DNA of 64,000 nt from Mesorhizobium sp. (GTDB taxonomy: Bacteria > Pseudomonadota > Alphaproteobacteria > Rhizobiales > Rhizobiaceae), in contig SAJS01000001.1 in the NCBI GenBank assembly GCA_004017535.1, positions 434,001 through 498,000 of the forward strand, given 5' to 3'. A program made the position numbers and the translations under genes. Shown here one piece after another: positions 5,994 through 60,348 of the stretch (its first letter is position 1; every line of letters starts with the position of its first letter). The notes under the pieces were generated by a model. That model searched no databases and was not told where the DNA came from. It saw only the letters and a program-made list of their open reading frames with translations.

Positions 5994-7154
5994 GTGGCCG
6001 CTGACGCTGAACTTCCGCTGACCGGCCTCGTGGTCGTCGACATGAGCCAGTTCCTGTCGGGGCCTTACTGTTCGCTGCGCCTGCTCGACCTCGGCGCGCG
6101 CGTCATCAAGATCGAGCGGCCTGATGGCGGGGATCTCTCGCGCCGGCTCTATCTCAGCGACACCGAGATCGGCGGCGATTCCACCATCTTCCATGCCATC
6201 AACCGCGGCAAGGAGAGCCTGGCCATTGACCTCAAGAACGAGGCCGACCTCGCCGCGCTGCGCGGCCTGATCGCCAAGGCCGACGTGCTGATCCAGAATT
6301 TTCGGCCGGGCGTCATCGAGCGGCTCGGCCTCGACTACGAGCATGTCAGCACCATCAACCCGCGGCTCGTCTACGCATCGATCAGCGGCTATGGCGACGA
6401 CGGTCCCTGGGTGAAGCGCCCGGGGCAGGATCTGCTTGCCCAGGCGCGCTCCGGCGTGATGTGGCTGAACGGCGACGAGGAGCAGGGGCCGGTGCCGTTC
6501 GGGCTGGCGATCGCCGACATGCTGGCGGGCGCGGCCTGCGCGCAAGGCATCCTCGCCAAACTGGTGCGGCGCGGCATCACGGGCGAGGGTGGCCATGTCG
6601 AGACCAGCCTGCTCGAGGCGCTGGTCGATTTCCAGTTCGAGGTGCTGACCACGCATCTCAATGACGGCCGCCGCCTGCCGAAGCGCTCGTCCTTTCGCAG
6701 CGCCCATGCCTATCTCTCGGCGCCTTACGGCGTCTATCCGGCCAAGGACGGTTACCTGGCGATCGCCATGACGCCGATCCCGAAGATTGCCGATCTGCTC
6801 GAATTGGCCGAGCTCGACCCGTTCCGCGACAAGCCCGCGACCTGGTTCACCGCCCGCGACGAGATCAAGGCGATCATCGCCAGACGCATCGCCGAAAAAA
6901 CCACCGACGAGTGGCTGGCCATTCTCGAGCCCGCCGACATCTGGTGCGCCAAGGTGCTGACCTGGCCGGAGCTGATGGAAAACGACGGCTTCAAGGCACT
7001 CGACATGCTGCAGACCGTGACGCGCGAGGACAATGTCTCGATCCTCACCACGCGTTCGCCGCTGCGCGTCGATGGCGCCCGCGCTAAGGTGGATCGGGCC
7101 GCTCCGCGCATCGGCGAGCACAGCGACAAGATCCGCGCGGAGTTCGGCCTGTGA
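5994..7154 (+). CDS. CaiB/BaiF (class III) CoA-transferase
   Basis: The 386-residue protein uses a GTG start three bases after the preceding stop. Class III CoA-transferases move CoA between carboxylic acids through an Asp-anchored anhydride. Family features are GLVVVDMSQFLSGPYCS, ARVIKIERPDGGD, the RG(K)ESLAIDLK segment, QNFRPGVIERLGLDY and PGQDLLAQARSGVM. The Asp in AIADMLAG (about residue 175) matches the catalytic Asp. With the MaoC gene upstream it suggests activation of an acid to its CoA ester followed by hydration, as in itaconate or mesaconate metabolism; the actual substrate is unknown. Confidence 0.93.
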   Translation: MAADAELPLTGLVVVDMSQFLSGPYCSLRLLDLGARVIKIERPDGGDLSRRLYLSDTEIGGDSTIFHAINRGKESLAIDLKNEADLAALRGLIAKADVLIQNFRPGVIERLGLDYEHVSTINPRLVYASISGYGDDGPWVKRPGQDLLAQARSGVMWLNGDEEQGPVPFGLAIADMLAGAACAQGILAKLVRRGITGEGGHVETSLLEALVDFQFEVLTTHLNDGRRLPKRSSFRSAHAYLSAPYGVYPAKDGYLAIAMTPIPKIADLLELAELDPFRDKPATWFTARDEIKAIIARRIAEKTTDEWLAILEPADIWCAKVLTWPELMENDGFKALDMLQTVTREDNVSILTTRSPLRVDGARAKVDRAAPRIGEHSDKIRAEFGL

Positions 7155-8302
7155 GCGGTGTTTTTCTGAAAGGCATGACCTGGAGCCATCCGCGCGGCTA
7201 CGACCCGATGGTGGCTTGCTCGGCGCTGTGGCAGGAAAAGACCGGCGTATCGATCGAATGGGAGAAACGCTCGCTGCAGGATTTCGAGTCCTTCCCGGTG
7301 GAAGAGCTGGCGCGGGCCTATGATCTGATCGTCATCGACCATCCGCATGTCGGCCAGATCACCGCCGAAAAGTGCCTGGCGCCGCTCGATGTAGCCGGAC
7401 GCGAGGCGGAACGCGAGGCTCTGGCCAGGGGCAGTGTCGGCAAATCCTACCCGAGCTACAATTGGCAGGGCCGGCAATGGGCTTTCCCGATCGATGCCGC
7501 CACCCAGGTGCAGGCCTGGCGGCCGGATCTGATCGAAGCCGCGCCGGTGATCTGGACCGAAGTGCTGGCGCTTGCCGAGCAGGGCCGCGTTCTCTTGCCG
7601 CTCAGGCCGCCGCATTCGCTGATGTGCTTCTACACTTTGGCCGCCGAACTCGGCCGGCCCTGCACGATCGACGGCTCGGTTGACCTCGTCGATGGCGAAA
7701 CCGGCGAAACCGCCTTTGAGATGCTGAGCGAGATCGCGGCGCTCGTCGATCCCGCATGCCTGACGATGGACCCTATCGCGGTTTTCGAGAAAATGGCCGA
7801 GCCCGGTTCACGCATCGCCTGCGCGCCGCTGATCTATGGCTATGTTCCCTATGCGGTGGCGGACTTCCGGCCGCATCGCATCGCCTTTGCCGACATGCCG
7901 GTCGTCGGCGGCAATGGGCCGGTCGGCTCGGCGCTCGGCGGAACCGGCATTGCCGTCTCCGCCTTTTCCGGTGCGCGCGAGGCGGCCATCGACTTCGCCT
8001 ACTGGATCGCCAGCGGCGACGTGCAGCGCGGGCCTTACGCCGCTGCCGGCGGCCAGCCCGGCCATGCCGCGGCTTGGGAAGACGACGCCGTCAACGCCGC
8101 GACCGGCAATTTCTATCGCGACACGAGGGCAACGCTCGAAGGCGCCTGGGTGCGTCCGCGCCATGACGGCTACATGGCGTTCCAGCAGCAGGCTTCCGAC
8201 CGCATCAACGAAGGCCTCGCCGGCAGACAGGACGCCCGCCGCGTCGTCGCCGACATCAACCGCCTGTTCCGGGAGAGTTTCGCGCCGGCCGCCGCCGGCT
8301 AG
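7151..8302 (+). CDS. Extracellular-solute-binding-like protein without signal peptide
   Basis: The 383-residue protein starts at GTG 7151, overlapping the CoA-transferase stop by four bases. The sequence resembles family 1 sugar-binding proteins (WEKRSLQDFESFPVEELA, YDLIVIDHPHVG, QGRQWAFPIDAATQVQAW). The N-terminus MSGVFLKGMTWSHPRG lacks a basic-hydrophobic leader, lipobox or Tat motif, so export is not predicted. A genuine periplasmic binding protein follows at 8329. It may be a cytoplasmic ligand-binding protein, or the start may be misjudged, though the four-base overlap argues against a longer N-terminus. Confidence 0.8.
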   Translation: MSGVFLKGMTWSHPRGYDPMVACSALWQEKTGVSIEWEKRSLQDFESFPVEELARAYDLIVIDHPHVGQITAEKCLAPLDVAGREAEREALARGSVGKSYPSYNWQGRQWAFPIDAATQVQAWRPDLIEAAPVIWTEVLALAEQGRVLLPLRPPHSLMCFYTLAAELGRPCTIDGSVDLVDGETGETAFEMLSEIAALVDPACLTMDPIAVFEKMAEPGSRIACAPLIYGYVPYAVADFRPHRIAFADMPVVGGNGPVGSALGGTGIAVSAFSGAREAAIDFAYWIASGDVQRGPYAAAGGQPGHAAAWEDDAVNAATGNFYRDTRATLEGAWVRPRHDGYMAFQQQASDRINEGLAGRQDARRVVADINRLFRESFAPAAAG

Positions 8303-8328
8303 TTTCACTGCACCAAGGGAGGAAAATA

Positions 8329-9513
8329 ATGACCAGCCTGATACGCGGCCTGCTCGCCGCAACCGCCATAATCTCGATCCCATTCGCCGCTCACGCCGCC
8401 GATGCGAAGTCGGTGATCGACGGCCTGCCCGCCGATCTCAAGGCGCAATATGACGGCGCGCCGCAGAAAGTGCTGCCCTCGGCCTGGGATAATTTCACGC
8501 CGCCGGCGAAGCCCTGGAAGTGGTGCCATTCGGAAAGCTACCAGGGCAATCCGTGGCGCGTCTCGGTCACCAAGGAGCTGAAGCGGCTGGTCGATGGCCT
8601 CATCGCCGACGGCACGGTGTCGAGCTTCGAGGTCTCGGATTCGAACAACGATCCCAGCCAGCAGATCAACCAGATCCGCGCCTTCATCGACAAGAAATGC
8701 TCGATCATCACCTCGATCCCTGGCTCGGCGACGGCGCTCGACGACGCCGTGGATGCCGCGGCCAAGGCGGGCATTCCGTTCATCACGGCGGCGGGTTCGA
8801 TCACCAGCCCCAACGCCATCAATGTCGATTCCAACTATGCCCGCTGGGGCTATGACATGATGACGGCGATCGGCAAGGCGAAGCCCGACGCCAGCGTGCT
8901 GGTGGTGGAAGGCATCGCCGGACATCCGATCGTGGTCCAGGAGAAGCAGGGCGCCGACAAGGCGCTTGCCGAGAACAAGGGCCTCAAGGTTGCGCGCACC
9001 GTCAACGGCAATTGGACGGCCAACGTCACCAAGACGGTGGTTCTGCAGGCGATCGCCACCAATCCGGCGCCGATCGACGCGGTGTGGACGACCGGCAGCG
9101 AAAGCCGGGTCGTTGCCGAGGCTTTTGCCGAGGCCGGCCGCCCCGCGCCGCTGATCACCGGCTCGATAACCGGCGACGCGCTCGGCTACTGGAAGGCCAA
9201 TCCCGACAAGTACCGCTTCGAGGGCCATGCGGTGCTGCCGGGCTGGACGGCGCAGACGCTGTTTCGTGTCGGCGAACGCATGCTCGACGGCCAAAAGCCG
9301 AAGCTCAACACGCTGCTGATCCCGATCCCGCCGGTGCACGCCGCCGAGCTCGACAAATGGTACAAGGACTGCATGACGCCGGATACCGTGTCGGTCTTCC
9401 CGGTGCCGCCGACCGACCCGATGCCCGAAAACGTGCTCGACGCCTATTTCAGCAATCCCGCGCCGACCAAGGGCTGGGATTACTCCAAGGTGCCGGACGC
9501 CTGCGCCAAGTGA
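8329..9513 (+). CDS. ABC transporter periplasmic binding protein, ribose/PBP1 type
   Basis: A 394-residue protein with ATG 8329 behind AGGGAGGAAA. A cleavable leader (residues 1 to about 23, ending AAHAA) precedes a PBP1-fold domain: SESYQGNPWRVSVTKELKRL, VSDSNNDPSQQINQIRAFI, GIPFITAAGSI and DAVWTTGSESRVVAEAF. It should deliver a small solute to the permeases at 11033 and 11979. It is longer than the usual 310-350 residue ribose-binding proteins, with extra sequence at both ends. Ligand is unknown; the linked CoA enzymes suggest a carboxylated or otherwise unusual compound. Confidence 0.9.
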   Translation: MTSLIRGLLAATAIISIPFAAHAADAKSVIDGLPADLKAQYDGAPQKVLPSAWDNFTPPAKPWKWCHSESYQGNPWRVSVTKELKRLVDGLIADGTVSSFEVSDSNNDPSQQINQIRAFIDKKCSIITSIPGSATALDDAVDAAAKAGIPFITAAGSITSPNAINVDSNYARWGYDMMTAIGKAKPDASVLVVEGIAGHPIVVQEKQGADKALAENKGLKVARTVNGNWTANVTKTVVLQAIATNPAPIDAVWTTGSESRVVAEAFAEAGRPAPLITGSITGDALGYWKANPDKYRFEGHAVLPGWTAQTLFRVGERMLDGQKPKLNTLLIPIPPVHAAELDKWYKDCMTPDTVSVFPVPPTDPMPENVLDAYFSNPAPTKGWDYSKVPDACAK

Positions 9514-9568
9514 TGTTCTGTGGAGCCGGCTCTTCTTGAGGGCCGGCTTCTCCATTTCGGAAAGACAC

Positions 9569-10306
9569 ATGCTGGAAGTCCAACGCGTCTCCAAACGCTA
9601 TGGCGAAACCGTCGCGCTGGCCGAGGCGTCGATCGCCTTTCGTCCAGGCACGATCCATACGATCCTGGGCGAGAACGGCTCGGGCAAGAGCACGCTGGTG
9701 AAGCTCTTGTCCGGCATCGTGCAGCCGGATGGCGGCGCGATCCTGCTCGATGGCACGCCGTTTTCCGGCACACATCCCGCCGCCTTCCAGGCTGCGGGCT
9801 TTGCCACCGTTTTCCAGGAGGTGCTGGTCGCGCCTGAACGTTCGGTGACCGACAACATCCTTCTCGGCCTCGACGGCCTGTGGCGACGAGGCGTGCCGCG
9901 CGGCGAGCGGCGCGCCCGGGCGCAGGCCGCGCTCGGCCGATTCGCGGTGACGCCGATCGATCTCGATAGGCCATGCGGCGAGCTGCCGCTTGCCGCAAGG
10001 CAGCTTGTGGTGCTCGCCCGCGCGGTCATCCGCAACCCGCGTGTCCTGATCCTCGACGAGGTGACGGCGGCGCTCGACTTCGCCGACCGCGAGTCGGTCT
10101 TTTCGCTGATGCGCGCCATGGCCGGGGCGGGCACGCTGATCCTGTTCATCACGCACCGCATGGACGAGGTGATGGCTTTGTCCGACCGCATATCCATCCT
10201 GCGCGCCGGCCGCGTGGTGAAGACCGAGGAGCGCGGCGCCTCGACGCCGGCCGAGCTTCTGGCGGCGATGGCGCCGCAAACGGCAGCGGAGCTGGCGCAT
10301 GGCTGA
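9569..10306 (+). CDS. Sugar ABC ATPase, N-terminal-half homologue (split RbsA)
   Basis: The protein has 245 residues from ATG 9569 (GGAAAG upstream; an in-frame TTG at 9536 is less likely). It corresponds to the first nucleotide-binding domain of RbsA/MglA-type proteins: Walker A GENGSGKST, Q-loop TVFQEVLVAPERSV, degenerate signature LPLAARQLV, Walker B VLILDEVTAALD and switch His FITHRMDEV. The normal second half is a separate gene starting inside this one (8-base overlap at 10299). It should power import together with that partner. Confidence 0.9.
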   Translation: MLEVQRVSKRYGETVALAEASIAFRPGTIHTILGENGSGKSTLVKLLSGIVQPDGGAILLDGTPFSGTHPAAFQAAGFATVFQEVLVAPERSVTDNILLGLDGLWRRGVPRGERRARAQAALGRFAVTPIDLDRPCGELPLAARQLVVLARAVIRNPRVLILDEVTAALDFADRESVFSLMRAMAGAGTLILFITHRMDEVMALSDRISILRAGRVVKTEERGASTPAELLAAMAPQTAAELAHG

Positions 10307-11036
10307 GACAAAGGCGCTTCATGTGCGTGGGCTGGTCATCGCGCCCGGTGTCAATCCGATCAGCCAGACCATCGCGCCGGGCGAGATCGTCGGCCTTGCC
10401 GGGCTGGACGGCCATGGCCAGGAACGCTTCCTGCGCGCGCTGGCCGGGCTTGAGCGGCCGGTGGCTGGCGAGATTTCCGTCGACGGCAAGGCCGGATCGA
10501 TCACCAGCTTTCGCAAGGCCGTCGCTGGCGGCATCGCCTATCTGCCGCGCGACCGCCGTTCGACCGGTATTTTCCCGACGCAGTCGGTGCTCGATAATTT
10601 CGCCATTTCAACCGTGTCGAACGACCGCCGCTTCGGCCTCTTGAGCTTCGCGGCGCGTCGCCGTCGCTACGAGACGTACAGGCAAAGGCTTAGCATCGTG
10701 GCGCCGCGTCCCGATGCAGCGATCACCACGCTGTCCGGCGGCAACCAGCAGAAGGTGCTGCTCGCGCGGGCCCTTGCTTTGCAGCCGAACGTCCTCTTGC
10801 TCAACGATCCGACGCGCGGTGTCGACGTGGCGACCCGGCACGTGCTCTACGACGTCTTCCGCGGCCTTGCCGCCGAGGGCATGGTCTTGGTGATCCTGTC
10901 CAGCGAGATTGAGGAGATATTGCTTCTGTGCCACCGCGTGCTGGTGTTCCGCGAACAGCGCGTGTCGGCCGAGTTCTCGGGCGCGGAAATGACCACCGAC
11001 GCGGTGATCGCCGCCATGTTCGGACGCGCCGCATGA
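10299..11036 (+). CDS. Sugar ABC ATPase, C-terminal-half homologue (split RbsA)
   Basis: The protein has 245 residues, with its ATG inside the end of the preceding gene. It matches the second domain of RbsA-type ATPases: the degenerate Walker A GLAGLDGHGQE, canonical signature [15 protein letters not shown], Walker B VLLLNDPTRGVDV (Asn replacing the usual Asp before the Pro-side Asp) and ILSSEIEEIL in place of the switch His. This asymmetry is normal for the second half of fused members. Here it is made as its own polypeptide, presumably forming a heterodimer with 9569-10306. Confidence 0.9.
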   Translation: MAETKALHVRGLVIAPGVNPISQTIAPGEIVGLAGLDGHGQERFLRALAGLERPVAGEISVDGKAGSITSFRKAVAGGIAYLPRDRRSTGIFPTQSVLDNFAISTVSNDRRFGLLSFAARRRRYETYRQRLSIVAPRPDAAITTLSGGNQQKVLLARALALQPNVLLLNDPTRGVDVATRHVLYDVFRGLAAEGMVLVILSSEIEEILLLCHRVLVFREQRVSAEFSGAEMTTDAVIAAMFGRAA

Positions 11037-53398: not shown

Positions 53399-54400
53399 AT
53401 GCCGTCAAACGCCCCGCTGATCCTCTTCTGGACGCGCTACTTCAACAAGCCTGTCGACGTCGCGGCCATCCCGCGATGCTCCGTGCCCGTCGAATGGACC
53501 AACGACCGGCGGCGGCTTGCCGAGTCCGACGCGGTGGTCTTCCATCTGCCAAATTTTCGCGAAGCCGGCGATGCCCACAAATATCCTGGCCAGCTCTGGG
53601 TCGCATGGTCGATGGAGAGTGTCGTCAACTATCCAGTCATGGCGGACGCCGCCTTCATGCGGCACTTCGATGTCGTCATGACCTACGAAACCGGATCGGA
53701 CGTCTGGAGGCCTTATCTGCCGCAAGCAAGCTGGTGGGAAGGCGCCCGCCACGCGCCTATACCGCCTAAGACCGAGCGCGCCCCGGCGGTGCATTTCCAG
53801 TCATCGAGCTTTAACAAGAGCGGGCGTGATACATTCATCGCCGAACTGTCCCGGCACATCGCGGTCGACTGCTACGGCCGCTACCGGCCCAACCGCGAGA
53901 TCATAGGCCCTGATCTCGGCCGGCAGACCAAGCTCGAGACCGTTGGCCGCTATCACTTCTGCCTGGCGCTGGAGAATTCGATCGCGCTCGACTACGTCAC
54001 CGAAAAGATGTTCGATCCGCTCGCCGCCGGCACCGTGCCGGTCTATCTCGGCGCGCCCAATGCCGCCGCGTTCGTTCCCGACAATTCCTTTATCGACGCT
54101 GCATCTTTCAGCACACCGGCCGAACTCGCGACCTATCTTCGCCAACTCATCGAAACACCGCCAGCCTATGAAGCTTATCTGGCCTGGCGATCGAACCCGC
54201 TGCCCGAGAAACTGGCAGCCCAGATTGCCAGCCTTGACACGCCTCCGCTCTGCCGGCTCGCTCGGCTCGTCACTCACCGCCTGACACAGCACGGCGCGGG
54301 CCAGCCGCCTGGCAAACCCTCGCTGCCGTTTGGTGGCAAGGCGTTTCTGCGCACCAGGTGGCGCCGTTGGCTGGCTGCCCGCCGCGGCAGGTCGATGTAA
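53399..54400 (+). CDS. Glycosyltransferase family 10 (alpha-1,3-fucosyltransferase-like)
   Basis: A 333-residue protein matching GT10. The N-terminal acceptor half includes AWSMESVVNYPV and FDVVMTYETGSDVW. The C-terminal donor half carries the hallmark motifs YHFCLALENSIALDYVTEKM and FDPLAAGTVPVYLGAPN. GT10 enzymes transfer fucose from GDP-fucose to GlcNAc or glucose. The basic C-terminal tail (RTRWRRWLAARRGRS) could bind the inner membrane, as in the Helicobacter enzymes. It converges on a GT32-GT62 gene nine bases away. Confidence 0.92.
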   Translation: MPSNAPLILFWTRYFNKPVDVAAIPRCSVPVEWTNDRRRLAESDAVVFHLPNFREAGDAHKYPGQLWVAWSMESVVNYPVMADAAFMRHFDVVMTYETGSDVWRPYLPQASWWEGARHAPIPPKTERAPAVHFQSSSFNKSGRDTFIAELSRHIAVDCYGRYRPNREIIGPDLGRQTKLETVGRYHFCLALENSIALDYVTEKMFDPLAAGTVPVYLGAPNAAAFVPDNSFIDAASFSTPAELATYLRQLIETPPAYEAYLAWRSNPLPEKLAAQIASLDTPPLCRLARLVTHRLTQHGAGQPPGKPSLPFGGKAFLRTRWRRWLAARRGRSM

Positions 54401-54408
54401 GACGGGCG

Positions 54409-55974
54409 TTACCACGGCACGTGGAGGATTTCGAGCTTGGGCAGGCCCACCGGCCGGATACCAAGATCGTTGGCCAGCATACCGAAGGCCTCAGTCTCGA
54501 TCAGGTCGCGATAGGGGATCTCCGGAAAGCGAAGTCCGCCGCGATGTAGGGCCGCGTCGACGAGAAGCATGGTGCCGCCGACCGCGTCGAGGCCGATGCT
54601 GTCGAGATGCCTGACGTCGCTAAGATGCAGGCGGCCGTAGGAATGGGCCGGCGGTTGATAGATGCCGCCGCGTATCTGGCGATAGTAGTGATAGTCTTTC
54701 TGCTTGCGCACGCTGATGAAGTTGTTCAGGTCGAAGCTGCCCCCGCCGGCGATCTTGACGCAGTTTGGGACCACGATGCGATTCCTGCTTTCGATAAGCC
54801 GGATCAAGACATCGCGGGGAAATCGCCACACGTCGATATCGACCCACAGTGCCCAATCGTCGCTCGCGTCGAGGCCGTGGTCGATGAGGTGGTTTCGCAC
54901 CTTCGCGATGGCGCCGCGCCTCATGCGCTGCAGGCCTCGCTTGGCGCGCTTCGTCCGGTCGAGCTGGACGCCTGTCCGCTTCTGCAGCAGAATCACGTCC
55001 CGATAAATGCGGGCCAGCGGCGCGACGGCTTGCCGCAATCGCTCCCAGCTCCCGTCCTCGCTGTCGCCCTCACAAAAGACCAGCTTGATCCTGTCCTTCG
55101 GGTAATCGAGCGCGCCGACGGCATCGAGGAAGGGCTGGATATGATCGGCCGCGTCGCGCAGCGGCACCAGGATGGCGACGTTGCGGCCTGACGGGGCCGG
55201 CGCCGCGAGGGCCGCCTGGCTCACGCCCTGCCTGGCGGCTGCTTCGCTTAGATGGGCGCCGCGTGTCAGATAGTGCCAGGACCGATAGGCATGCGTGCGA
55301 ATCTTGTCTCGCCATCCCGGCGCCGGAGCGCGTGTCCACCATGTGCCGGCCCAATGGTGGATGGAAAGCGTCGCGGCCCCATCGTCGCTACTGCGCCCAG
55401 CCGAGTCGACCGGTGCGAACAGCGCCGAAGGATGGATGGCGAAGGCGGATTGGTCGGCGTAGCTGAGCTGGGCTGAAGTCATCACGCAGGGGCCTGTCGC
55501 GTCTATGGTTTCCTTGGCGCGGGCGAGCCCCGGCAGGAAGGACAGGAGGTGAAGCCAGAAGGGATGGCCGGCCGGGCTGGCGATCGTGCCGTTGAACAGA
55601 AGATAGGGCAGCCGGCGGAAATCGGCCTGCACCCGTGCATGCGTGTCCGGTTCCTTGCAGACAACGATCCGGTCCTCGCTTGCCAGCGGATCGAACGGCG
55701 CCACGCATTCGCAGTCGATATCGGCGTATACCCCGCCGAAATGATGCAGGAGCAGGTACCGTCCGGCATCCGCCCTCAGCACGCCGCTCTGGTAACTGCA
55801 AAAGGTCGGCAGGAAGTCGGGATAATGCCGCGCGACGAACTCGAGCAACTGACGATCGTTCCAGAACATCATCGTCCAGTCCGGATGGTGCCACTTCCAG
55901 CTCTCGACATAAGCCTGGAACCGGGTCGGGATCTGGCCGGTCTTCCAGGTCTGGTGCAGGATCTTGGGGATCAT
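54409..55974 (-). CDS. Two-domain glycosyltransferase: GT32 (OCH1-like) plus GT62 (Anp1-like)
   Basis: The protein has 521 residues. Residues 1 to about 250 are a sugar-binding DXD (GT32) domain: IPKILHQTWKTGQIP, LRADAGRYLLLHHFGGVYAD and the metal DID at 85-87. From about 265 the Anp1-like domain begins (VAILVPLRDAADHIQPFLDA, FCEGDSEDGSWERL, WALWVDIDVWRFP, GGTMLLVDAALHRGGL, PEIPYRDLIETEAFGMLA). Both families are best known from fungal Golgi mannosyltransferases. Last gene of a minus-strand operon, 22 bases after the GT2-GT4 gene. Confidence 0.87.
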   Translation of the reverse strand: MIPKILHQTWKTGQIPTRFQAYVESWKWHHPDWTMMFWNDRQLLEFVARHYPDFLPTFCSYQSGVLRADAGRYLLLHHFGGVYADIDCECVAPFDPLASEDRIVVCKEPDTHARVQADFRRLPYLLFNGTIASPAGHPFWLHLLSFLPGLARAKETIDATGPCVMTSAQLSYADQSAFAIHPSALFAPVDSAGRSSDDGAATLSIHHWAGTWWTRAPAPGWRDKIRTHAYRSWHYLTRGAHLSEAAARQGVSQAALAAPAPSGRNVAILVPLRDAADHIQPFLDAVGALDYPKDRIKLVFCEGDSEDGSWERLRQAVAPLARIYRDVILLQKRTGVQLDRTKRAKRGLQRMRRGAIAKVRNHLIDHGLDASDDWALWVDIDVWRFPRDVLIRLIESRNRIVVPNCVKIAGGGSFDLNNFISVRKQKDYHYYRQIRGGIYQPPAHSYGRLHLSDVRHLDSIGLDAVGGTMLLVDAALHRGGLRFPEIPYRDLIETEAFGMLANDLGIRPVGLPKLEILHVPW

Positions 55975-55996
55975 GTAAGGCTCGTTGTGCGGCGGT

Positions 55997-58090
55997 TCAT
56001 CGGCTGGTTCCGTACAGTCCCAGGCCGTGGCGAACAGCGTCGCGGATTGCCTGAGGTCCGAAACGGGACCAAGCGGTATCGTGAGCCCGGGCGCGCAGTC
56101 TCGCCATGCGGGCGGGGTCGGAACAGAGTGCGACCGCCAGGTCGGCCAATCCTTCGTCGGTGTCGGACAGAAGCAGGTCTTGGCCGCCGGTGAGGTCGAG
56201 CCCCTCCGCCGCCAATGGCGTCGCGATCACCGGCACGCCCGAGGCCATCGCTTCCAGGATCTTGATGCGCGTGCCGCCCCCGATCCTGAGCGGGACGATG
56301 CAGAGATGCGCTGCCGACAGCAGGGGACCCACATCGTCAGGGTTTTCGATCAGGACCACGCCGTCGAGTTTGGCCAGGATGCGGACGGCCGGATCGGGCG
56401 AACGACCGGCTAGGATAAGCCGCGCGGCTGGCAAGGCCCGCCGGATCCGCGGCAGGATGATACCGGCCAGGCGTTCCGCGGCATCGATGTTGGGGTGGTA
56501 GCCGAGGTGGCCTGCAAAAAGGATCACGGGAAATCCGTCGGACGTGCCGGGCGATACAGGCAGCTCGGACGTCCCTTTGGCCCGCGGTATCCCGTTCGGC
56601 ACGATGTCGATCGGTGTTGCGTGCTCGACGATTGCCTTGAGCCGCTCGCGGTCCAGCTTCGAGCAGACCCAGATGCGGTCGACGATCGCAGCCGCCCTCC
56701 GCTCCAGCTGCCTTATCTCGGGCGACACGGCCGATGGCGCATTACCGGGGGTCTGGGCGGCGAGATCGGACTCGACATTGTGCATGTCGAGAATGAGCTG
56801 CCTGGTCAGCGGCCGCAGAGGCTGCAGCAGCTTGAACAGCGGAATGCTTTCGACGACGATCGTGTCCGGACGGAACTCGCGCGCCAAGGCCTTGAGGCGG
56901 GCGAGCGCCGGACGCGGAATCCGGTTCTCGCCCTTGACCCGCCGCCAGCCGAGCGAATGCGATCGTTTGTCGGCTTCCGTGGTCAGTGAGACTACGCGGA
57001 TGTCGCGGCCGCGTGGTCGCGTCGAGCCGGCAGGCCTGATCGAGGCAAGGCGGACCGGACCGACTTCGGCGGCCGCGACGGCATTGCCGAAGGTCCTTAG
57101 GTCGGCGCCAGAGGTGGGCGGGTAGGCCGGGTCGAAGCTGACGATCAGCGTGCGCCGTGGCGCAGCCAAGCTGGCGGCCGGCCTGATCCCGGCCAGCCGC
57201 CCGATCCAGATCCTGGTCAGGTATTGGGCCGCTTTCCAGCTTTGGCCGAGCTCCTTGTGCGCCAGGACCGCGCGCATCATGCCGGCGGCGTCCGTGAACA
57301 ACCGGTGCTTGATGAGCTGGCGCGCAATGCGTTGCGCTATCCAGGCCTTTCGCCATTGCAGCGCGTCCCGCTCGACTCCGGCGGCTTCGAGGCTGTCGAG
57401 CTCGCGTGCAATGGCGAGGAACGTCTTGCGTGGCGCGGTGATGAAGCGGCGCGCCATTCGCTCTTCATTGTGGTGATAGAGGAGCACCGGCGTCTCGATC
57501 GCGACGACTTCGGCGCGCGCCAGCAGCGCCGCCCAGTAGCAGGTGTCCTCGTCGAGGCCGATCGTTTCGGGAAAGCGAATGCCGGCTGTCGCCCAATTGG
57601 CCATCAGCGCGCTTCCCATCGCGATCGGCCACAACTCGTTGCGCAGATATCGGCGCGTGTTCTGCCGCCTGTCGGGGCCATAGCCATGTGGCGTCTTGAG
57701 CTTGTCCGACCGGCCCTTCGCGCGCCGTATGCTGGCCCCGACGGCAAGGCCGGCGCGAGGCTGGCCTGCGAGCGCCGAACCCAGCTGCGACAGGCTGCCG
57801 GGCATCACCTCGTCATCGGCGTCAAGAAAGAAGATGGAAGTGCCGCTTGCCCGCTCGATGCCGACATTGCGCGCGGCGCCCGCGCTGCCCTGCCGAACGC
57901 TCACCACATCCAGCGGCAAGCCAAGGCGGCGCGCGCTTTCCATCGCCACCTCGGCCGTGCGGTCATCCGAGCCGTCGTCTATTACCAGGATCTCGCGGAT
58001 AACCGGCCTGTCGGCGGCCAGGCTGCCGAGCGCCGCGTCCAGCGTCGCGGCCGCATTCCTTGCCGGGATGACGACGGTTATGGCGGCCAT
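55997..58090 (-). CDS. Two-domain glycosyltransferase: GT2 plus GT4
   Basis: The protein has 697 residues. The N-terminal GT2 domain has ITVVIPARNAAATLDAAL, LVIDDGSDDRTAEVA, GSAGAARNVGIERASG and the metal-site FFLDADDEVMPG. From about residue 310 comes a GT4-like B-type domain: VSFDPAYPPTSGADLRTFGN, LDMHNVESDLAAQ, VPNGIPRAKG, ILFAGHLGYHPNIDAAERLA and the donor-binding RIGGGTRIKILEAMASGVPV. It probably adds two residues to a surface glycan. It is in the middle of the operon between the primase-like and GT32-GT62 genes. Confidence 0.92.
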   Translation of the reverse strand: MAAITVVIPARNAAATLDAALGSLAADRPVIREILVIDDGSDDRTAEVAMESARRLGLPLDVVSVRQGSAGAARNVGIERASGTSIFFLDADDEVMPGSLSQLGSALAGQPRAGLAVGASIRRAKGRSDKLKTPHGYGPDRRQNTRRYLRNELWPIAMGSALMANWATAGIRFPETIGLDEDTCYWAALLARAEVVAIETPVLLYHHNEERMARRFITAPRKTFLAIARELDSLEAAGVERDALQWRKAWIAQRIARQLIKHRLFTDAAGMMRAVLAHKELGQSWKAAQYLTRIWIGRLAGIRPAASLAAPRRTLIVSFDPAYPPTSGADLRTFGNAVAAAEVGPVRLASIRPAGSTRPRGRDIRVVSLTTEADKRSHSLGWRRVKGENRIPRPALARLKALAREFRPDTIVVESIPLFKLLQPLRPLTRQLILDMHNVESDLAAQTPGNAPSAVSPEIRQLERRAAAIVDRIWVCSKLDRERLKAIVEHATPIDIVPNGIPRAKGTSELPVSPGTSDGFPVILFAGHLGYHPNIDAAERLAGIILPRIRRALPAARLILAGRSPDPAVRILAKLDGVVLIENPDDVGPLLSAAHLCIVPLRIGGGTRIKILEAMASGVPVIATPLAAEGLDLTGGQDLLLSDTDEGLADLAVALCSDPARMARLRARAHDTAWSRFGPQAIRDAVRHGLGLYGTSR

Positions 58091-58102
58091 GCGCTCAATG
58101 GC

Positions 58103-58753
58103 TCATTGCCGTTCGAAGAAGCCGCGCTTGAGCAGGCGGTCGTAATAATGCTTGAGCAGCGACACCGGGCGCAGCGAGAGGCTGCCAAGGTCATCAACGA
58201 GTTGCGGCTCGACGTCGAACGGCGACTGGCTTTCGAGCCAGCCGTAGGAAGAGCCGTCCCTGAGCACCGAAGGAGAGCCCACCACATAGCCGCCGAGCGC
58301 CTTGACGTGGCCGACCCGTCGCAGGCCGAAATGCAGGCTGGAAGAGATCATTGGTTCGCGCGTCCTCAGATAGACATGAAACCCGCTCGGCGACTTTGCG
58401 ATCGGCGTGCTGTTGGCAATTGCCTTGTGATCGGCCTGCCAGGCACGGTAGCCGGCCGCGTCATCGAAATCGAGGATCATCAGGTTGGAAAATCCTCCCA
58501 ATATGCCGACATTGCCGGCAAAGCCGCCAAACCAGCGTGCAATGTCGCTACCGTCCGGCGGCTTCTGCGCCAAGTGGAAGGTGATGGAATTGAAAGCCAG
58601 TTCCTTCAGATCCTTGCGCAACGCCCGCAGATGCAGCGGATCATACCCCATCGCCGCCAGGTCGAGATGCTTGCCGCCGGCACGAAGCGGCAGGCATATA
58701 TAGCCGCGCCCCAGCAGCCTCAAAGCATAATCCGTCAGCACCCGAGGCTGCAT
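58103..58753 (-). CDS. Orphan primase-polymerase (Prim-Pol N-terminal) domain-like protein
   Basis: A 216-residue protein from ATG 58753; a GTG at 58780 is possible. It resembles the bifunctional primase/polymerase N-terminal domain of the archaeo-eukaryotic primase superfamily. It has LTDYALRLLGRGYICLPL at the start, motif I as LMILDFDD (Asp about 95 and 97), motif II as AKSPSGFHVYLRT (His about 126) and the KALGGYVVGSPSVL block. There is no helicase partner or phage gene nearby. Instead it is 12 bases upstream of a glycosyltransferase, in the same operon. Its role there is unknown. Confidence 0.8.
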   Translation of the reverse strand: MQPRVLTDYALRLLGRGYICLPLRAGGKHLDLAAMGYDPLHLRALRKDLKELAFNSITFHLAQKPPDGSDIARWFGGFAGNVGILGGFSNLMILDFDDAAGYRAWQADHKAIANSTPIAKSPSGFHVYLRTREPMISSSLHFGLRRVGHVKALGGYVVGSPSVLRDGSSYGWLESQSPFDVEPQLVDDLGSLSLRPVSLLKHYYDRLLKRGFFERQ

Positions 58754-58861
58754 GCGCCAGTTTAGCCCTATCGAACCCACGGCCGATCTTCGTTAGCCAA
58801 CGGCGCCGTCGTCAAGCCATTCGTTGGGATACCATCCCAGCCCGACGCGTTGTTGTGCAGG

Positions 58862-59064: not shown

Positions 59065-60348
59065 TCAGACCGGCGCCGGGATGCGGCCGTTGGCAGGCCT
59101 CTCGTCCTCGGCCGGAATGGCCACCCTGCGGCGCCGGAAAGCCGGCAACGGGGTCAGCCTGAACAGGCCGTAATAGACGATGAAGGACGCCATGAAGTAG
59201 GGGCCGAGCATCTCGACCTCGAAGAACGAGCGGATCAGCATCAGTCCGATCGCGCCGGCAAGCACCACCGAATCGGCGCTCCAGTCGCCGAACACCACTT
59301 TCGACACATGGCCATAGAAAGCGCGCAGGATGACCAGCGCCAGCAGGGTGACGCCGATGAAGCCGATTTCCACCAGCGTCTCGACATAGGTGTTGTGGAA
59401 GTGGAAGCCCGAGCGGGTCGAGATATAGAATTCCGCCCACAGCCGCTCCGGATCGGCAAAACCCTGCACCCAGTAGGCGGCGTAGCCATAGCCGAGCAGC
59501 GGATGCTGCTGCGCCGCCTCCCAGCCCTGCTCCCACAGATAGGTGCGGCCGGTCAGCGTCGAATCCTTGCCGAAGATGCCGAGCACGACATCCAGTAGGC
59601 CGAGATTGAGCGCTGCCACGACAGCCGTCACCAGCGCGCCGGCGCCGACAACGAACAGCACGCGGCGATAACGCAGCGACAGCACCTTGCTCATGGTGAG
59701 CAGCGACACGACGCCGATCACGGCCGGCAGCGAGGCCACGGACGTCGCCGAATGAGCGATTGCCAGCATGTAGACCGACAACAGCATGATCGGCGCGGTC
59801 CAGGCGAAGCCCAGCCAATTGCGCCGATAGAAGACCAGGAACGCAAGGCAAAAGAAGATGCCGAGCGATGCGAAGAAGCCGACCTGGTTCTTGGAACCGA
59901 AGGCGCCGACGAAATTGACCGTGCCGTCCATGATGTCGAGCGCATAAGCGCCGACTTTCATTGAATAGAGCAGAACGACGAAGATACCGATCAGCGAGCC
60001 CACCACCAGCGTGCGCACGCTGATGGTGCGCGCCGCGACATAGGCGCAGACGATATGCGAGGAATATTGCACCGCCGCGCGCGCGCTGATGCCCGCCGCC
60101 TGGGACCAGAACACCGACAGGCAGACATAGAGTGCAAGCGTGATCGGCAGCCACGCCGTGGAAAGCCTCCAGGTGAAGCGCCGGTAATCGACGAACAGCA
60201 GCGGCAGCCAGACAGCATAATAGGCGAGGATCAGGATCTGGCCGAAATTGGGCGAATAGGCGAAGGCGATCACGGAAACCGCGACCGCGAAGGCGCCGTA
60301 GGTCTCGTTGCGATCGGGATCGATCAGAATGGATTTCGGGATCTTCAT
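59065..60348 (-). CDS. exoQ: O-antigen ligase/polymerase family protein (ExoQ-like)
   Basis: A 427-residue membrane protein with about ten hydrophobic spans. The Wzy/WaaL-type periplasmic region shows FGKDSTLTGRTYLWEQGWEA, HPLLGYGYAAYWVQG and SGFHFHNTYVETLVEIGFIG, with His residues typical of the ligase/polymerase family. ExoQ polymerises succinoglycan repeat units into high-molecular-weight polymer. The order exoY, exoF, then this gene is the same as the Sinorhizobium exoYFQ operon, apart from an acyltransferase inserted between exoF and exoQ. Confidence 0.85.
   Translation of the reverse strand: MKIPKSILIDPDRNETYGAFAVAVSVIAFAYSPNFGQILILAYYAVWLPLLFVDYRRFTWRLSTAWLPITLALYVCLSVFWSQAAGISARAAVQYSSHIVCAYVAARTISVRTLVVGSLIGIFVVLLYSMKVGAYALDIMDGTVNFVGAFGSKNQVGFFASLGIFFCLAFLVFYRRNWLGFAWTAPIMLLSVYMLAIAHSATSVASLPAVIGVVSLLTMSKVLSLRYRRVLFVVGAGALVTAVVAALNLGLLDVVLGIFGKDSTLTGRTYLWEQGWEAAQQHPLLGYGYAAYWVQGFADPERLWAEFYISTRSGFHFHNTYVETLVEIGFIGVTLLALVILRAFYGHVSKVVFGDWSADSVVLAGAIGLMLIRSFFEVEMLGPYFMASFIVYYGLFRLTPLPAFRRRRVAIPAEDERPANGRIPAPV

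Follow-up and report, generated by a model that had tools for sequence, protein, structure and literature searches.

In the 64,000-nucleotide stretch of a Mesorhizobium sp. genome analysed here (the window), a small protein at the head of a glycosyltransferase operon, called PP below, is best read, with a probability of roughly 0.6, as a Prim-Pol fold recruited from replication into a transferable glycan cassette, where its old nucleotide site would serve a dedicated GT2 glycosyltransferase partner. There is good support both for the AEP fold and for a recruitment of PP into a glycosyltransferase module; a functional tie of the cassette PP to the glycan module is highly probable, and the protein is in good likelihood not a primase and most likely does not prime DNA. 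The features on which this reading rests are collected in Table 1.

Table 1. Genes, remnants and active-site positions in and around the PP operon, in window coordinates.
Feature	Position	Strand	Basis
PP, Prim-Pol (AEP) fold protein, 216 aa, operon gene 1	58753..58103	-	PF09250, AF2, Foldseek
GT2-GT4 fusion glycosyltransferase, 697 aa	58090..55997	-	Pfam PF00535 + PF13692
GT32 (Gly_transf_sug)-GT62 (Anp1) fusion glycosyltransferase, 521 aa	55974..54409	-	Pfam PF04488 + PF03452
GT10 fucosyltransferase-like gene, convergent, optional neighbour	53399..54400	+	Pfam
O-antigen ligase/polymerase-like (Wzy_C) gene, adjoining polysaccharide cluster	59065..60348	-	Pfam
LuxR-type regulator, C-terminal remnant of ~36 aa	58862..58972	-	comparison with relatives
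Motif I, D95-F-D97	58463..58471	-	aligned to 1RNI; pRN1 D111/E113 by count on the alignment
Motif II, His126	58376..58378	-	aligned to 1RNI; pRN1 H145 by count on the alignment
Motif III position, His149 replacing the usual Asp	58307..58309	-	loci count and alignment
Family-specific N-terminal insertion, residues ~29-57, with H29, H41, K47, K50	58583..58669	-	alignment

The original prediction had described a 216-residue open reading frame with three Prim-Pol motifs as the first gene of a tight minus-strand operon, followed by a GT2-GT4 and a GT32-GT62 fusion, and each element of this description holds: the motifs are all in place, with a match to PF09250 at E 6.6e-12 (46.6 bits, cut-off 22.8; Pfam), the coordinates agree with spacings of 12 bases between PP and GT2-GT4 and 22 bases between GT2-GT4 and GT32-Anp1, and the Pfam domains of both partners are as named, Gly_transf_sug and Anp1 both scoring over the cut-off in the latter. 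A GTG at 58780, nine codons upstream, is an alternative start of PP; the alignments of many Mesorhizobium relatives begin at the same ATG as that adopted here. The nearest relatives by sequence are Mesorhizobium, and PP is the sole PF09250 match at E 0.001 in the 6.86 Mb host genome. A Pfam scan of seven window proteins, namely PP with both of its partners and the products of four flanking genes, found neither a helicase nor a helix-bundle domain. Since an O-antigen ligase-like gene, an acyltransferase and a polysaccharide export gene (Pfam) lie upstream of PP on the same strand, the cassette adjoins an exopolysaccharide cluster. Comparison with one related locus (L035) indicates that ~6.5 kb between the Wzy and PP genes is missing in the window; the regulator remnant adjoins a 15-residue stretch which in L035 lies just past Wzy, and 13/36 loci of the genome collection described below carry the LuxR-type regulator as an open reading frame of ~269 codons that lies 0.1 to 5.6 kb upstream of PP.

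The supposition that the motifs belong to an AEP protein is borne out by structure prediction, AF2 and Foldseek giving the AEP fold and no non-AEP outcome. The AF2 model (pLDDT 93.2) has the Prim-Pol domain of pRN1 ORF904 as its best structural match (Foldseek/VIA) and aligns with it over residues 1-198; membership in the AEP/Prim-Pol superfamily (PF09250) is indicated by fold and family profile alike, and the Prim-Pol (AEP) fold of PP is thereby predicted with high confidence and well supported. The closest known protein, pRN1 ORF904 (PF09250; PDB 1RNI, 3M1M), differs from PP in having helix-bundle and helicase domains, in its plasmid replication context as against a glycosyltransferase operon, and in lacking an insertion of ~25 residues, while motif III of PP, read against the pRN1-related pORA1, has His instead of the usual Asp. 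PP ends after the catalytic core: no helix-bundle domain follows the Prim-Pol domain within its 216 aa, where PF09250 is the sole Pfam domain found.

The motif I DxD/E and the motif II His of AEP proteins are retained (D95, D97, H126), and position 149 is His, in 66/66 loci, a set that joins 36 loci from the genome collection with 30 from the genus, which overlap in species and are not independent; the former were found with two peptide patterns, one of them holding the His149 stretch, and are therefore biased to the His form, with distant relatives missed, and the latter by profile search. The acidic motif III residue of the canonical triad is thus replaced in PP, a feature that the original prediction does not mention. 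Among the seven full-length relatives recovered by whole-protein search from 297 family genomes, motif III is His in six and Asp in one (L024), and among the distant members L024, L025, L067 and L237 the Asp is likewise confined to L024, where it sits in an otherwise altered stretch. Both pORA1 and the canonical Prim-Pols have Asp at this position in the alignment. Phage Prim-Pols (PHROG 1156, 5852; NrS-1) also differ from PP, from which they branch apart: of 172 relatives from the viral contig scan, with best segments 26-37% identical, 80 were kept, and their motif III, read like that of the canonical rows from the sequence strings themselves, is Asp in 76 and His in one, with three unreadable. 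The lone His among the 77 readable viral relatives belongs to a viral-contig Prim-Pol (L158) with the stretch GVHHIKANGGY. According to the consulted text of PMC10345425, the two metals are held by acidic residues in motifs I and III, mutation of which ablates Prim-Pol activity; the RepE/RepS primases have Gln at motif III (PMC5862659, in the portion consulted). Because of that Gln and of the phage His, the change at motif III alone is no proof of lost polymerase activity.

The N-terminal insertion is absent from pORA1 and from the canonical and viral Prim-Pols in the alignment. Its H29, H41, K47 and K50 are invariant in a 33-row alignment of relatives, K47 is Arg in 1/30 genus loci, and these residues are less conserved in L024, L025 and L237.

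The linkage of PP to the glycosyltransferase was surveyed in a collection of genomes of 84,980 species, scanned with patterns from an alignment of five relatives, where 79 stretches matched and 36 encode a relative. The survey of neighbours suggested with the original prediction gave a clear answer, since a GT2 follows PP directly on the same strand in 35/36 loci spread over three phyla, the sole exception being a Pseudohoeflea locus (L067); with the distant relatives L024, L025 and L237, which were found otherwise and have no GT2, the count is 35/39. The same gene pair in 35/36 loci makes the operon more than chance and rules out a one-off rearrangement. The gap between PP and GT2, taken from the start codon nearest the GT2 match, is at most 26 bases in 31/34 measured cases, with a 4-base overlap in 5/34. 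The GT2 half of GT2-GT4 is the constant partner, GT4 being present in 34/36 loci and GT32 in 30/36 (encoded on the other strand in L060 and L063), while a GT10 and a Wzy-like gene each lie near the cassette in 12/36. As one Hoeflea locus (L064, of the same genome as G279) carries PP and GT2 alone, that pair is taken as the core of the cassette. The cassette GT2 matches the PF00535 profile, and its D38, D39, D90, D92, D93 and D180-E181-D182, which carry the DxD and catalytic ED motifs of GT2 enzymes, are invariant in 35/35 loci.

The hosts are mostly Mesorhizobium, joined by three Verrucomicrobiota loci grouped in a single clade (100/99) and by a single Desulfuromonas locus (Thermodesulfobacteriota), so that the cassette spans Pseudomonadota, Verrucomicrobiota and Thermodesulfobacteriota, some of the host names resting on metagenome bins. 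Where non-Mesorhizobium loci were inspected, unrelated genes surround the cassette, and neither a flippase nor a polysaccharide polymerase was seen by eye (10 ORFs scanned). The GT10 gene just upstream of PP in the Desulfuromonas locus (L061, 8805-9890) has a G+C content clearly below that of its neighbours, and beside the cassette of a Verrucomicrobia bin (L063, 10067-14022) a Cas9-like protein in two pieces is followed, as judged by eye, by cas1/cas2-like ORFs.

The whole-protein search of the 297 family genomes gave matches at E 0.001 in 13 genomes, in seven of them full-length, and a GT2 lies beside four of these seven (the window's own, G067, G038 and G279) and not in G186, G008 and G043. 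A second, divergent copy in G796 (L237) also has no GT2; in the stretch 6990-10799 it overlaps by 4 bases a polysaccharide pyruvyltransferase gene (PS_pyruv_trans, PF04230, E 8.7e-25) and has two neighbour proteins in common with L025 of G043 (56% and 44% identical), one of them weakly GT2-like, and this solely in L237 (PF00535, E 0.035, below the cut-off), the other unassigned. No glycan gene was found among the six neighbours scanned at L067/L023 (G186), nor a glycan neighbour by eye at L024 (G008), and the glycan link therefore covers much, not all, of the PP family. In the Pseudohoeflea locus L023 (8649-10254) two Prim-Pol genes stand in tandem, the upstream copy matching PF09250 at E 2.2e-10, and adjoin an Exo_endo_phos-family gene and an aspartate dehydrogenase-like gene.

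A midpoint-rooted tree, in which the program flagged long branches, places the 40 rows of the PP family apart from the three viral and two canonical Prim-Pols used, with support of 100/100. Searches beyond the order, in samples of 385 class and 398 phylum genomes with at most eight candidates scored per genome, gave only weak partial matches (best E 2e-13, ~residues 58-188) and no full-length members, and the divergent G796 copy as query found no new member in 213 family genomes. No match to PP was found at E 0.01 in 50,697 phage records, and the plasmid search returned a single one, pORA1, with 31.6% identity over 64% of PP; a remnant of phage or plasmid replication was rejected on these results.

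Within the genus, PP is present in 34/146 genomes at E 1e-10, being unbroken in 32 (one of these copies cut by a contig end), truncated in one (G808) and broken in one (G217). G796, with its second, divergent copy, is among the 32. The full-length cassette GT2 (at least 64% identity) is found in 32/146 genomes, the same 32 that have an unbroken PP, a correspondence to be read with the Mesorhizobium cassette at one shared chromosomal site, which means that the genomes are not independent trials; a distinct GT2 paralogue (33-39% identity) is widespread, also in genomes without PP. The decayed copies are varied: G808 has a PP cut off at residue 139 and has lost GT2, GT4 and GT32-Anp1; G073 has lost PP and retains only scraps of GT2 and Anp1; G217 has a broken PP, lacks the stretch from ~PP residue 121 to GT2 residue 128, and keeps GT4 and GT32-Anp1; G085 has a broken PP and has lost GT2. 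G131 combines a wrecked PP with an adjoining GT2-GT4 in frame that has 51/51 of the GT2 residues invariant in the 35 loci, from which it follows that PP is not always needed. Pairwise distances over the 36 loci correlate most closely for PP and GT2 (rho 0.94, 595 pairs), followed by PP and GT4 (0.91) and by PP and ALDH, a chromosomal neighbour (0.66); given ALDH, the partial rho of PP and GT2 is 0.82 over 276 pairs. Median dN/dS, from 26 Mesorhizobium-type loci and pairs with dS of 0.05-1.0, is 0.21 for PP, 0.20 for GT2, 0.26 for GT4 and 0.08 for ALDH, so purifying selection on PP is about as strong as on GT2. Of the earlier idea that the domain had been recruited into glycan synthesis, the part that stands on fold, linkage and co-occurrence is the tie to the glycosyltransferase module, and the biochemical role that it suggested (nucleotide-sugar, nucleotidyl or signalling) is taken up below with less weight.

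The cassette is thus seen as PP and GT2, usually with GT4 and GT32-Anp1, in which the old polymerase nucleotide site, with its altered metal site, would serve the GT2 reaction by handling an NTP or NDP-sugar. Judged from its sequence, the cassette PP probably keeps nucleotide binding along with a metal site, and that it performs catalysis rather than binding alone is given somewhat less than even odds. The favoured activity would be the transfer, without a template, of a nucleotidyl or related phosphoryl group to a glycan intermediate or carrier, with ligand-gated control of GT2 as the alternative; the specific proposal, that the His-altered PP moves such a group onto a sugar, glycan or carrier and thereby supplies or caps the GT2 substrate, is tentative. 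The making of a donor sugar was also considered and is weakened by the finding of no sugar-modifying enzyme in the cassette. The consulted part of PMC11009956 calls the pRN1 H145A mutant catalytically inactive, leaving room for a small residual activity, and still observes bound nucleotide signals; kept H126 therefore favours catalysis.

The main rival, rather unlikely in our estimate, sees in PP a nucleotide-binding subunit with no catalytic activity, which senses an NTP, an NDP-sugar or a dinucleotide signal and switches GT2 on, as the replacement of one metal-holding acid and the small size of PP, constant partner of one GT2, may suggest. Palm-type folds act as receptors in exopolysaccharide control, and the degenerate GGDEF domain of PelD switches on Pel polysaccharide synthesis; such receptors resemble PP, by analogy only, as palm-type nucleotide domains tied to a glycosyltransferase, whereas PP keeps catalytic-type residues. 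The conservation of D95, D97 and H126 in 66/66 loci exceeds what a simple pocket should require, and the part that the equivalent H145 plays in pRN1 catalysis likewise speaks against a pure sensor. It is improbable that PP has remained a primase-polymerase or a repair polymerase whose neighbours are incidental: the Pfam Prim-Pol match over the cut-off, the His or Gln at motif III of replication AEPs, the three of seven full-length relatives in the 297 family genomes without GT2, and the polymerase activity supported by the pRN1 catalytic domain alone (PMC8076596, as far as consulted) are in its favour, but they are set against the 35/36 linkage across three phyla, the lack of helicase and helix-bundle domains in the seven window proteins, and the near absence of PP from phage records and plasmids. 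As the helix-bundle domain of pRN1 is needed to prime, not to extend, according to the same portion of PMC8076596, its absence together with the replaced motif III Asp argues that PP is not a primase.

An equally improbable reading, if not slightly more so, would have the module act on nucleic acid, the glycosyltransferases decorating an oligonucleotide made or held by PP, for example in phage defence or for a nucleotide natural product. The patchy spread and decay of the cassette would suit it, as would the unrelated surroundings of the non-Mesorhizobium cassettes with no flippase or polysaccharide polymerase seen by eye; however, a Wzy-like gene lies near in 12/36 loci and in the window, and none of four proteins matched any PADLOC anti-phage defence family at E 0.01, a result by which a known defence system was also rejected. 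Relatives of Anp1 and GT32 act on glycans, which counts further against it. Least probable is a neutral passenger or decaying gene, to which the broken copies in G217, G808, G131 and G085 might point, but the dN/dS of PP is close to that of GT2 and the active-site residues are kept.

The roles of the Prim-Pol superfamily covered in the consulted text of two reviews are DNA replication, repair, damage tolerance and CRISPR (PMC10345425, PMC4538821), 'glyco' does not occur in that of PMC4538821, and no report joining a Prim-Pol protein with glycosyltransferases in this sense was found in the open-licence literature. A hypothetical protein with a Prim-Pol domain, SCO3972 of Streptomyces coelicolor, is listed in the sigma-E cell-envelope stress regulon (PMC6767563, in part), and the CRISPR-associated Prim-Pol (CAPP) is, like PP, an AEP taken into a non-replication operon (PMC10345425, in part). 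PP is a new variant within the AEP fold, with a role that would be new if proven, and the evidence suggests a DNA-replication fold put to work in making a sugar polymer. A nucleotidyl or phosphoryl transfer outside nucleic acid synthesis, if borne out, would add a new catalytic role to the primase superfamily, and the conserved link with glycosyltransferases, seen across three phyla, would carry Prim-Pol into cell-surface or glycan chemistry. The misleading label 'bifunctional DNA primase/polymerase' would be corrected, and PP with GT2 would give a compact two-gene system for direct tests of the role.
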